From Burkholderiales bacterium (GTDB lineage Bacteria; Pseudomonadota; Gammaproteobacteria; Burkholderiales; SG8-41): 41,328 nucleotides of DNA. How positions within the stretch are numbered: the stretch's first letter is position 1; every line of letters starts with the position of its first letter. The translations under genes and the position numbers were made by a program. The stretch is taken from positions 1 through 41,328 of the forward strand of contig JAIETP010000030.1 in NCBI GenBank assembly GCA_019744975.1. The letters are read 5' to 3'. Under the pieces are notes generated by a model. That model ran no database searches. It saw only the letters and a program-made list of their open reading frames with translations, and had not been told where the DNA came from. Shown piece after piece: positions 37,653 to 41,328 of this stretch.

Positions 37653-38621
37653 ATGCGCAATATCTCCCTGCTATTTCTGATGCTGACCGCTGCGGGTGCC
37701 ACCGCATTCGTGGCCCCAGCCGTACGCGCGCAGAACTACCCCGTCAAACCCATCCGCATCATTTCCCCCTACACCGCCGGCGGTCTCGGCGACCTGGTCC
37801 CCCGCGCCATCGGTGGCGGACTGACCGAAGCCCTGGGCCAGCAGATCCTTGTTGAAAACCGTCCCGGTGCATCGCAGGCGATCGGCATGCAGCTCGTCGC
37901 GAAATCGCCGGCTGACGGTTACACGCTGGTGTACGGCAGCGTGACCAGTCTCGCGATCAATCCGGCGGTGACCAAGGATCTGCCTTATGACCCGGTCAAG
38001 GATTTCGCACCTTTGTCGCTGTGTGTGACCACGCCATTATTTTTGGTGTTGCATCCCTCGGTGCCAGCGAAGAACGTGAAAGAACTGATCGCGTTGGCGA
38101 AACGCCAGCCGGGCAAACTCACCTTTGCATCGGGCGGCAACGGTTCATCGAATCATCTGGCCGGTGAATTGCTGAAACTGCTCGCAGGCGTGGACCTGCT
38201 GCATGTGCCGTACAAGGGCGCGGGTCCGGCGATGATTGATGTGATGGCGGGGCATGTGGACATGATGCTGGGTGCGGCGGGGCTGGCTGAAGCGCGTGCC
38301 GGTCGCGTCAAGGTATTGGGTGTGACCAGTGCTAAACGTGCAGCTTCTGCGCCGGATCTGCCAACGCTCGCCGAAGCGGGTGTGAAGGGTTATGAATCGA
38401 CGATCTGGTTCGGCCTGCTGGCGCCGGCCGGTACGCCGCGGCCTATTGTTGATCGGCTGTCGCAGGAGATCGGGAAGGTGCTGCAGCAGAAGGCACTTCG
38501 TGAGCGTTTCAACACGGTCGATTTGACGCCGACCACGCCCGAGGGATTTGCTGCGCATATCCAGCGCGAGATTCCTAAGTGGCGGAAGGTGGTTACTGAG
38601 GCGAAGATTACGGCGCTTTGA
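37653..38621 (+). CDS. TctC/Bug-family periplasmic solute-binding protein (6)
   Basis: A 322-residue protein with signal peptide MRNISLLFLMLTAAGATAFVAPAVRAQ, then YPVKPIRIISPYTAGGLGDLVPR and VENRPGASQAIGMQLVAK. The Bug loop GGxxD is GGLGD here. GGNGSSNHLAGELLKLLAG and HVPYKGAGPAMIDVMAGHVDM are family blocks. The ATG at 37653 has GAGAAG upstream. It is the only plus-strand TctC here and precedes the FAD monooxygenase by 107 bases that hold a hairpin repeat. It may take up an aromatic or heteroaromatic acid for that enzyme, but this is inference. Confidence 0.9.
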   Translation: MRNISLLFLMLTAAGATAFVAPAVRAQNYPVKPIRIISPYTAGGLGDLVPRAIGGGLTEALGQQILVENRPGASQAIGMQLVAKSPADGYTLVYGSVTSLAINPAVTKDLPYDPVKDFAPLSLCVTTPLFLVLHPSVPAKNVKELIALAKRQPGKLTFASGGNGSSNHLAGELLKLLAGVDLLHVPYKGAGPAMIDVMAGHVDMMLGAAGLAEARAGRVKVLGVTSAKRAASAPDLPTLAEAGVKGYESTIWFGLLAPAGTPRPIVDRLSQEIGKVLQQKALRERFNTVDLTPTTPEGFAAHIQREIPKWRKVVTEAKITAL

Positions 38622-38701: not shown

Positions 38702-38729
38702 TAAGTATTTGATTTAATTCATTATTTTA
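38702..38729 (+). repeat. A/T-rich boundary element, copy 7
   Basis: TAAGTATTTG followed by ATTTAATTCATTATTTTA; its last base is the A of the monooxygenase ATG. No Shine-Dalgarno lies between it and the start codon, so this gene may be translated without one. Confidence 0.7.
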
Positions 38730-39877
38730 TGAAACCCCTCTCCATAGCGATTATCGGTGCCGGCATCGGCGGGCTGGCTGCTGCTGCGTTGTTGCGCCGT
38801 GCGGGACATACCGTGAATGTGTTTGAACAGGCGACGCAGTTTGCGCGTGTGGGTGCCGGCATCCAGATGGCGCCGAATGCGATGAAGGTTTTGCGTCTGC
38901 TGGGTGTTGAAGAGCGGCTGGTGAGCACGGCCTTTCAGGCGGATTTTGCCTTGAGCCGCGAATGGGACAGCGGCAAACCCAGCAGTGAATTGCCGCTGGG
39001 TGCTGAGGTGATGCAGAAGTTCGGTGCGCCATACCTGTTCCTGCATCGTGGTGATCTGCATGCGGCGATTGCCGATGTGGTGCCGCAGGACATCGTGCAT
39101 CTCGGCATGAAGCTGAAATTTTTTGATCAGAAGTCCGGCGGTGTTGATCTGCATTTCACGAATGGCGTGATGATCAAGGCTGATGCAGTGATCGGCGCCG
39201 ACGGTGTGCATTCGCTGATCCGCGAACAGATGCTCGGGCCGGAGAAGGCGCATTTCACCGGTCGGGTGGCCTACCGTACGACTTTCCCGGCATCACGCAT
39301 TCAGGGCGTGACCATGGCCCCTGTGCGCACCAAGTGGTGGGGACCGGACCGGCACATGGTGGTGTACTTCGTCACGCGCAACCGTGACGAGCTGTATTTC
39401 GTGACCTCGGTGCCGGAGAAGGCGGACTGGATTACGCCGGAGTCGTGGTCGGCGAAAGGCGATCTGGAGGAACTGCGTGCGCTGTATGCCGGGTTCCATC
39501 CGGAAGTGCAGGCGATCCTGCAGGCCTGCCCCGAAGTCTACAAATGGGGTTTGTTCGAGCGCGATCCGCTGTCGCGTTGGTCCGAGGGGCGCGTCGCGCT
39601 GCTCGGTGATGCCTGCCATCCGATGACACCGTATATGGCGCAGGGCGCAGCTTCTGCGCTGGAAGACGCGGCCATCCTGTCGCGGGTGCTGACGGGAGTC
39701 GAGGCCGATGGTTTGTCTGCTGCGTTCAAACTCTATGAAGCGATTCGCAAACCGCGCGCATCAGCAATCCAGGCTGGCTCCAGTGCCAATACTTGGCTGA
39801 AGGACAAGACCGATCCATCCTGGGTCTACGGCTACGATTCGACGACGGTACCGCTGACCGAGCCGGCTGCGGCCTGA
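38729..39877 (+). CDS. FAD-dependent aromatic monooxygenase, NicC-like
   Basis: A 382-residue class A flavoprotein hydroxylase, single component, NAD(P)H-dependent. IAIIGAGIGGLAAAALL is the FAD-binding GxGxxG motif, and VALLGDACHPMTPYMAQGAASALEDA the GD motif and FAD ribityl site. The overall arrangement is close to 6-hydroxynicotinate 3-monooxygenase (NicC): WWGPDRHMVVYFVTRNRDE, NTWLKDKTDPSWVYGYD. NicC decarboxylates and hydroxylates 6-hydroxynicotinate to 2,5-dihydroxypyridine. No other nic gene is present, so the substrate could instead be salicylate or 3-hydroxybenzoate. It has an A/T-rich repeat directly before its ATG and is convergent with the LysR gene, 4 bases apart. Confidence 0.85.
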   Translation: MKPLSIAIIGAGIGGLAAAALLRRAGHTVNVFEQATQFARVGAGIQMAPNAMKVLRLLGVEERLVSTAFQADFALSREWDSGKPSSELPLGAEVMQKFGAPYLFLHRGDLHAAIADVVPQDIVHLGMKLKFFDQKSGGVDLHFTNGVMIKADAVIGADGVHSLIREQMLGPEKAHFTGRVAYRTTFPASRIQGVTMAPVRTKWWGPDRHMVVYFVTRNRDELYFVTSVPEKADWITPESWSAKGDLEELRALYAGFHPEVQAILQACPEVYKWGLFERDPLSRWSEGRVALLGDACHPMTPYMAQGAASALEDAAILSRVLTGVEADGLSAAFKLYEAIRKPRASAIQAGSSANTWLKDKTDPSWVYGYDSTTVPLTEPAAA

Positions 39878-39881
39878 TGAT

Positions 39882-40823
39882 TCAGTGCGTCGGCGCTTCC
39901 TGGGTACTGCCGAGCATGCTACGTAAAGCACGCCGGTCCAGGGCGGGGGCAAGCGTTTCGATGAAATCGAAAGCAAAGCCGCGGAGATACTGGTTTTTTC
40001 GGATCGCCAGGCATCCGGTGTGGGACTCGAACAGATGGTTGACGTCCATCGCGCTGAGTCCCGGGTCGCGTTTGCTGTCATAAGCCAGCGCGGGAAGGAT
40101 CGCGATCCCCAGCCCCGCTTCGACGAATGCCTTGACCACGTCAATGTCGACGCCGGTAAAGGCGATGCGCGGGGTCAGTTTGCTCCTGGTAAAGGTCTCC
40201 CGCATTTTTGATTGTCCGTGCGAACCGACATCCAGGGTGACCAGCGGATAAGCGGAAATTTCCTTGAGGGTCACCCGTTTGGCTTTCAACAGGGGATGCT
40301 TGCGCGGCACCAGCAAAGTGCGGGGCAGCTTGCAGTAATCGATTAGCTGCAGCGCCGGGAATGATTTGGCCGGCCTTGCGGTAACGGCGATATCGGCCTC
40401 GCCGGAAGCCACGAGTTGCGCGACATGGGCGGGGTTTCCCTGCAGCAGTGCCAGTTCGACTTTGGGATGAAGCTCGACAAACCGCCGGAATACGTCGGGA
40501 AGGACGTAGTGTGCGAACGTGAATGTTGCTGCAACGACCAGCTTTCCCTTGTCGCCTTCGGTGAATTCACTCGCCACCGCCTTGATGTCGTCCATCTGCC
40601 GCAGTACCTGCTTGGCGATGCCGACGATCCTGCGACCGGGCTCGGTCATTTCAACAATGCGGCTGCCGTTGCGGATAAAAAGGTCCACCCCGAGTTCTTC
40701 CTCCAGCAGCCGGATTTGCTGGCTGATGCCCGGCTGGGAGGTATGCAACGCAGCGGCGGCATTGGAGAAATTGAGTCCCTGTGCCGCGATTTCGGTCAGA
40801 TAACGCAGTTGGTGGGTTTTCAT
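39882..40823 (-). CDS. CysB-like LysR-family transcriptional regulator
   Basis: A 313-residue LysR regulator of the CysB/Cbl subgroup. The N-terminal helix-turn-helix is LNFSNAAAALHTSQPGISQQIRLLEEELG, followed by a linker helix. The C-terminal periplasmic-binding-like effector domain (about 90-300) includes FVEAGLGIAILPALAYDSKRDPGL. CysB responds to N-acetylserine, but the effector here could differ, and no cysteine genes are seen. It is divergent from the UGSC-type gene and convergent with the monooxygenase, so it may control either. Confidence 0.9.
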   Translation of the reverse strand: MKTHQLRYLTEIAAQGLNFSNAAAALHTSQPGISQQIRLLEEELGVDLFIRNGSRIVEMTEPGRRIVGIAKQVLRQMDDIKAVASEFTEGDKGKLVVAATFTFAHYVLPDVFRRFVELHPKVELALLQGNPAHVAQLVASGEADIAVTARPAKSFPALQLIDYCKLPRTLLVPRKHPLLKAKRVTLKEISAYPLVTLDVGSHGQSKMRETFTRSKLTPRIAFTGVDIDVVKAFVEAGLGIAILPALAYDSKRDPGLSAMDVNHLFESHTGCLAIRKNQYLRGFAFDFIETLAPALDRRALRSMLGSTQEAPTH

Positions 40824-40945
40824 CGGGAGGGCGTGGCGCAGGCTGTCATTTGATAAGCAATGATTATTATATAAAACTTTATATTATTGGATGGTTATAG
40901 CAGTTGGGAATACGATAAACGGTCAATTTGATCGGGGGCGGGACA
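40824..40945. promoter_or_regulatory. Divergent promoter region, lysR / UGSC gene, with A/T-rich palindrome
   Basis: 122 bases, very A/T-rich in the middle. ATATAAA-AC-TTTATAT at 40869-40884 is a perfect 7-bp inverted repeat around two bases, flanked by more TTATT and ATTATT words. Such A/T dyads are typical LysR-type operators, so it is a candidate binding site of the CysB-like protein. GGGGGCGGG just before 40946 could serve as a ribosome-binding site. Confidence 0.55.
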
Positions 40946-41328
40946 ATGTCAGTGGATCGCAGGGAAAATATCGGCGGTGTTGAAGTGCATGTGCCCACGG
41001 GGGCAATCGACTCCGCGTTGAAGGGGCTGGCCCCGCGGTTGGCCACCCTGAAGGGCGCCCGCGTCGGGATTCTCGATAACTGCAAGGAGTTTGCGGATCT
41101 CGTGCTGCGGGGTGTCGCAGACGTGCTGGCGCGGGACTACGGCGTGGAAGTCCGCTTCTGGCGCAAGAGTTATCTCGGCATACCGTCGCCCTTTGCGAAG
41201 GAAATGGCGGCATCCTGCGATGCAGTCATCAACGGCGTCGGGCACTGAGGATCCTCAACCCCCTGGACCGCGCGTGACGCGGCCGAGCTTGAAGACCTGG
41301 GTGTTCCCACGGTCACGGTCATCAGTAC
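40946..41328 (+). CDS. UGSC-family (seleno)protein, partial, with in-frame TGA read as selenocysteine
   Basis: Start at ATG 40946, 127 codons to the window edge. The frame has one TGA, at codon 101 (41246-41248), after DAVINGVGH. Read through as Sec, it continues as UGSSTPWTARDAAELED...GVPTVTVIS with no further stop. The UGSC family has [UC]GSC followed by a similar run and ELEK.GIPTV at the same spacing. The upstream part, VGILDNCKEFADLVLRGVADVL, is also family-like. Here the fourth position is Ser, giving UGSS. Family members are of unknown biochemical function. If no Sec machinery exists, this would be a truncated 100-residue protein. The C-terminus is cut by the window. Confidence 0.8.
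41246..41284 (+). promoter_or_regulatory. Candidate bacterial SECIS element
   Basis: Immediately 3' of the TGA. CCGCG (41268-41272) pairs with CGCGG (41278-41282) around the 5-base loop CGTGA. The stem extends by GG (41265-41266) with CC (41283-41284) around an unpaired A. The apical loop lies 25-29 bases after TGA, close to the position in known bacterial SECIS hairpins such as fdhF, and contains GU. Confidence 0.5.

Follow-up and report, generated by a model that had tools for sequence, protein, structure and literature searches.

A UGSC-containing protein has been reported in the Global Ocean Sampling (GOS) selenoproteome, in a paper of which one passage also mentions a UGSC/Unknown_1 fusion (PMC2398784). 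In glycine reductase and D-proline reductase, as described in a section of PMC10298544, selenocysteine (Sec) is thought to form a Se-C bond, after which the enzyme cleaves the bond. According to the same section, protein B of glycine reductase carries the Sec, binds glycine and expels ammonia, and a scheme legend locates the selenoether step in protein A, at the Schiff base. In Synergistota, according to an excerpt of PMC10838667, a GrdB-like operon is a candidate for cleaving the C-F bond of fluoroacetate. The passages on UGSC in PMC2398784, PMC13188914 and PMC9312934 contain no link to glycine reductase. Here we describe a gene of the UGSC superfamily at the end of a DNA stretch from a Burkholderiales bacterium (contig JAIETP010000030.1), called the window below; the window is the entire contig, 41328 bp, and the gene is broken off at its end. 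Its motif reads UGSS, U being Sec, a term with 0 occurrences in PMC13188914, the sole paper checked for it. The gene is a real bacterial selenoprotein gene whose TGA is read as Sec, a conclusion that we hold to be nearly certain.

The in-frame TGA and its decoding

Three features define the gene:

40946..41328, plus strand: selenoprotein gene with the UGSS motif, a member of the UGSC superfamily (PF24696); 127 codons lie before the contig end, where the gene breaks off
41246..41248, plus strand: in-frame TGA at codon 101, predicted selenocysteine, in the motif H-U-G-S-S-T-P-W-T-A-R-D
41265..41284, plus strand: predicted bacterial selenocysteine insertion sequence (SECIS) hairpin, 7 bp with one bulged A, loop CGTGA at 41273-41277, gap of 24 nt between TGA and loop

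The initial annotation, made from the letters of the window, had placed an in-frame TGA at codon 101, where UGSC-family proteins carry Sec or Cys, with an open frame behind it. The sequence confirms this: the frame that begins with the ATG at 40946 meets the TGA at 41246-41248 and then runs without a stop as far as the final base of the contig, 41328. A standard reading from this ATG does end at 100 residues, as had been predicted, while the list of open reading frames (ORFs) has 40928..41248 from a TTG (106 aa). The 127-residue read-through product scored 97.0 bits with the Pfam profile UGSC (PF24696), compared to 52.4 bits when cut at the TGA; the corresponding scores with NF041046 of NCBIfam were 69.4 and 27 bits. 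This shows that what follows the TGA is in-frame family sequence, and the matches to both profiles uphold the assignment of the TGA to the UGSC-family position. The Pfam gathering cut-off of 25 bits is passed by the truncated window copy and by a 200-residue orthologue (G009, 141.5 bits). Full-length UGSS orthologues have about 200 residues; the missing C-terminus of the window protein was looked for elsewhere in the assembly and not found.

The TGA is conserved. A search of 100 genomes, including that of the window, gave UGSS orthologues in 18 other genomes, with 60-81% identity over the window protein and one TGA each; the motif HUGSS was present in all 18 and in the window. A second scan, of named public genomes, covered 30 loci and overlaps with this set of 18. 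It returned 25 UGSS orthologues (54-100% identity to the query), and both the TGA and HUGSS were found in 25/25. The five other loci were distant relatives from Chloroflexi/SAR202 and Clostridiales, four with UGSC and the Clostridiales fusion with CGSC.

The genome to which the window belongs (3.69 Mb in 44 contigs, 99.28% complete) contains the Sec insertion genes to which the initial annotation had pointed: selA (579 bits), selB (423.9 bits) and selD (420.4 bits) all scored above curated cut-offs, and the tRNA-Sec gene selC reached 75.9 bits vs a gathering score of 47. The genes selA, selB and selC are clustered within 7 kb on contig C3. Nine UGSC-family places were found in this genome, with exactly one internal TGA each and the motif UGSC in all except the window copy, which has UGSS. 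A TGA-free homologue, which the initial annotation had raised as a sign of a pseudogene, was not present among the matches to the window protein in the genome, and the sequencing error that it had also considered is made very unlikely by the TGA being kept in other assemblies. In the same genome, selD (L026, C20:48172-49098) has one in-frame TGA of its own. A gene on contig C3 near 211.6 kb (L141) likely encodes a further selenoprotein: PrdB-like and about 407 residues long, it has a GrdB-type domain and the motif UPNC, in which the TGA lies. Many relatives have similar genes that include the TGA.

Behind the TGA lies a predicted hairpin, and its fit to the bacterial SECIS (bSECIS) model is supported by computation: it satisfies the rules of that model as given in a section of PMC13188914. 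The 60 nt starting from the window TGA have a folding energy of -18.4 kcal/mol. Across the window and its 18 orthologues, 19 sequences in all, the codons GCG CGT GAC at +8 to +10 behind the TGA were identical in 19/19, and GCG at +11 in 18/19. Among conserved degenerate codons, identity was 0.94 at +6 to +13 (5 columns) vs 0.52 outside +1 to +14 (43 columns), an excess with a one-sided p = 0.0004. In 16 of these sequences the hairpin is part of the minimum-energy fold of the 60 nt. A pairing test on the public scan plus the window (26 sequences, 24 distinct) found 99.4% of the hairpin cells paired, vs 28-57% when the hairpin was slid by 1-3 columns. In the other UGSC genes of the genome, a loop AGTGT or AGTCT was read by eye 18 nt behind the TGA in 6/8, the fusions L015 and L017 differing from this pattern; computed folds agree with the reading for four of them, L011-L014, in which the outermost bases of the loop are themselves paired, but do not do so for L009 and L010. 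Should the eye reading hold, the UGSS loop CGTGA lies 6 nt further out.

Stop is the default meaning of TGA, and the contig end also breaks the gene, as one might expect if the TGA were a true stop behind a functional 100-residue product, the mark of a decaying pseudogene or a sequencing error. Yet the same TGA recurs in 25/25 orthologues from other assemblies, each time followed by an open stretch of comparable length, constraint behind the TGA is seen at both the protein and the synonymous level, and the Sec machinery is present, so that we regard these three explanations as very unlikely and give them next to no weight together. The open frame alone would also agree with a TGA to which a suppressor tRNA or an altered genetic code assigns one of the ordinary amino acids. 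This is the least probable of the alternatives, since tRNA-Sec, selA, selB and selD are all in the genome, the TGA genes seen there belong to selenoprotein families (UGSC, selD, PrdB type) and the hairpin behind the TGA fits the bSECIS model.

The UGSS branch and the adjacent U1 gene

The motif was compared over 83 distinct family rows, taken from loci of the own and related genomes, partly hand-picked and not a census: UGSC was found in 51, UGSS in 19, UGGC in 6, CGTS in 6 and UGTS in 1. The serine that the initial annotation had noticed in place of the second Cys of UGSC proved real and clade-wide, the 19 UGSS rows being the window gene and its 18 orthologues; this position, three residues behind Sec, is Ser in the window and in all UGSS orthologues. 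A tree was built from 93 rows, namely 80 of the 83 rows (at least 150 residues) and 13 of the 30 public loci, leaving out the truncated window row and two others. Its 26 UGSS rows formed one side of a single branch with support 100/99, which was found in all 200 bootstrap trees. Long branches meet in this tree, one such join being that of UGSS with the Clostridiales row, so the placing of the UGSS clade within the family is unsure; its unity is not in doubt. UGSS is a distinct conserved side-branch of the UGSC superfamily that has kept Sec and lost the neighbouring Cys. It shares with the UGSC family (PF24696/NF041046) a profile match over most of the domain, the Sec column, a similar length, a hairpin behind the TGA and a second conserved domain, fused or adjacent, but it differs by having no second Cys, by forming a separate clade and by scoring under the NCBIfam cut-off. 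Annotation pipelines relying on NF041046 may consequently end these genes at the TGA.

At 25/25 UGSS loci of the public scan, a gene for a protein of about 350 residues, which we call U1, lies downstream on the same strand, with its start close to where the UGSS gene ends; in L156, L166 and L171 the contig stops within it. Among the distant relatives of that scan, U1 is fused or adjacent in 4/5, and for the fifth (L180) no U1 was found upstream and only 160 nt of room is left downstream. The eight other UGSC genes of the genome have U1 adjacent or fused in 8/8 cases. It was also found in 38/40 further loci (1.7-4.9 kb, hand-picked from genome-search matches), the match in L092 being weak (23 bits) and at a contig edge. 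Finally, U1 occurs in 74/74 searched genomes of the betaproteobacterial family, the own genome included, with copies up to at least 28. Scans of three U1-bearing proteins gave no Pfam or NCBIfam family over U1, a sequence comparison gave no relative in the PDB, and its structural model (predicted local distance difference test, pLDDT, 82.2; predicted template modelling score, pTM, 0.85) had no clear fold match. The Unknown_1 part of the GOS fusion may be the U1 domain. These results suggest that the UGSS protein and U1 very probably are a functional pair, and the joint statement, a selenoprotein in a functional pair with U1, is only marginally less secure. The two proteins would presumably form a complex.

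Fusions of UGSC with U1 were also seen in relatives: L066, L067, L070, L079, L100 and L114 have 545-579 residues, with CGTS replacing the Sec motif, and four of these six (L066, L067, L070, L079) have a UGSS gene within a few kb. One further UGSC-U1 fusion, L117, carries the motif UGTS.

Likeness to glycine reductase and possible chemistry

The NCBIfam profile TIGR01917 (glycine reductase selenoprotein B) matched 28 of 52 UGSC-family members at E <= 0.01, with a best value of 3.9e-6, the UGSS proteins reaching 17-21 bits, under its cut-off of 602. When 52 UGSC-family rows were aligned by hhalign with four GrdB-type proteins from relatives, the score was 52.4 (probability 91.7, E 7.9e-7) with Sec on Sec over 77 columns; controls gave at most 22.3 for 20 column-shuffled alignments, 15.2 for the reversed one and 13.2 for U1. 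Neither the window protein nor the G009 orthologue matched PF07355 (GrdB) in Pfam at E <= 0.1, this profile being blind to the shared part because it ends at Sec. Judged from these sequence comparisons, UGSC is probably a remote homologue of the Sec domain of GrdB.

The likeness to GrdB/GrdF/GrdH (PF07355, TIGR01917/TIGR01918) thus lies in a Sec aligned to Sec. The GrdB proteins of the relatives have similar residues behind Sec (U-G-[ST]-[SC]-T ... LE..GIP ... P.GDRD), share the motif UGTS with the UGSC family and show a two-gene arrangement like that of UGSS and U1, with GrdE-type genes (PF09338) adjoining GrdB in L124 and L127, the two loci examined for it; L124 itself scores 490.8 bits with PF07355. 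In contrast, GrdB has a larger N-terminal part that is absent from UGSS. Four GrdB-type genes (L124, L125, L126 and L127) were observed in relatives of the same betaproteobacterial family, with the TGA at UGTS or UGTC, and in L124 the GrdB-type gene is followed by a TctC-receptor-like gene (by eye). The PrdB-like UPNC selenoprotein L141 resembles the window protein in its GrdB-type Sec domain and its presence in the same genome, but differs in the motif, in a C-terminal extension and in the profile comparison given below.

A structural model of the UGSS orthologue L155 (pLDDT 89.6, pTM 0.83) shows five strands alternating with helices and Sec99, the counterpart of codon 101 in the window, between strand 91-97 and helix 102-115. 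The Sec domain is thus predicted to be doubly wound alpha/beta, Sec lying where a strand ends and before the following helix begins. The matches in the fold lists were lumazine synthase, flavodoxin-like, receiver, B12-binding and other proteins, with no thioredoxin-type description among the 50 rows shown in either list. As far as a model can tell, this speaks against the thioredoxin-like fold proposed in the literature, if not decisively.

The literature supposes for UGSC that Sec serves thiol-disulfide or peroxide redox in the manner of a thioredoxin fold. A section of a 2026 review (PMC13188914) lists UGSC in a series that ends with thioredoxin-fold proteins, the reach of the clause being unclear, and UGSC is the commonest motif among the rows compared (51/83). 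We consider such a role unlikely for the UGSS protein, since the UGSS clade, like the CGTS and UGTS rows, has no second Cys, and since the strands of the model alternate with helices and its fold matches are of other types.

We favour instead a GrdB-like, bond-cleaving chemistry of the UGSS-U1 pair, a proposal that we put at somewhat under even chances. The TGA is very probably decoded by SelB with Sec-tRNA, guided by the predicted hairpin 24 nt downstream. The UGSS protein would be the Sec-bearing subunit of a two-component enzyme of which U1 is the other subunit, the U1 of the window gene presumably having been lost at the contig break. U1 would bind or activate a small substrate, the Sec selenolate would attack one of its carbon atoms, and the bond cleaved reductively would be C-N or another C-heteroatom bond. 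An external thiol would then release the adduct, because the UGSS clade is without the Cys able to form an internal selenenylsulfide as in UGSC. More broadly and more tentatively still, UGSC or UGSS together with U1 could represent an unrecognised class of two-component selenoenzymes that combines the Sec domain of GrdB with a different partner and has multiplied in one betaproteobacterial family. If so, each pair would have a specificity of its own, and the class as a whole would act on a range of small substrates by reductive cleavage of C-N or other C-heteroatom bonds. The UGSS clade would then show Sec at work as a carbon nucleophile rather than as one partner in a selenenylsulfide redox couple. 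Three results make the function testable: a near-constant partner without a family name, the kinship with GrdB, and a clade with Sec and without the second Cys.

A number of observations weigh against this interpretation at its successive levels. Regarding the gene, the curated cut-off of NF041046 (125 bits) is missed by the truncated window protein and also by two nearly complete UGSS proteins, the G009 orthologue (107.4-107.5 bits) and L155 (107.2 bits). L072, L078 and L081 have minimum-energy folds of the 60 nt without the hairpin, and covariation in the hairpin is weak, with one pair changed on both sides and observed values matched in 37/500 shuffles. Regarding the pair, the window copy is truncated at the contig break and its UGSS-type U1 partner is not in the assembly, where the best U1-family gene is 42% identical to UGSS-type U1; the U1 frame is split in two in L175, and no U1 was found in L093 and L111 among the 40 further loci. 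Regarding the kinship with GrdB, the match spans about 77 columns, the GrdB alignment holds four sequences, two of them with 96% identity to each other, and the profile comparison of UGSC with the short PrdB-like family was not significant (probability 4.1). No relation of U1 to GrdE or GrdB was detected. A GrdE-type gene (PF09338) was not found in the own genome by a search that found none in 14 control genomes either.

Neighbourhood of the gene

Two features precede the selenoprotein gene:

39882..40823, minus strand: LysR-type regulator gene, divergent, candidate regulator (ORF list and Pfam)
40870..40883, strand not assigned: palindrome TATAAAACTTTATA in the space that separates the LysR and selenoprotein genes, seen directly in the sequence

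A LysR gene of the same cluster stands at the same distance and in the same orientation at a locus of the same genus (L071). The product of the LysR gene in the window might regulate the selenoprotein gene, and the palindrome is a possible LysR-type binding site. Upstream of the LysR gene are a TctC-type solute receptor gene (37653-38621) and an FAD-binding monooxygenase-like gene (38729-39877). Further away, between 34124 and 37481 on the minus strand, there is a row of three genes, two for protein kinases and one for a PP2C-type phosphatase.
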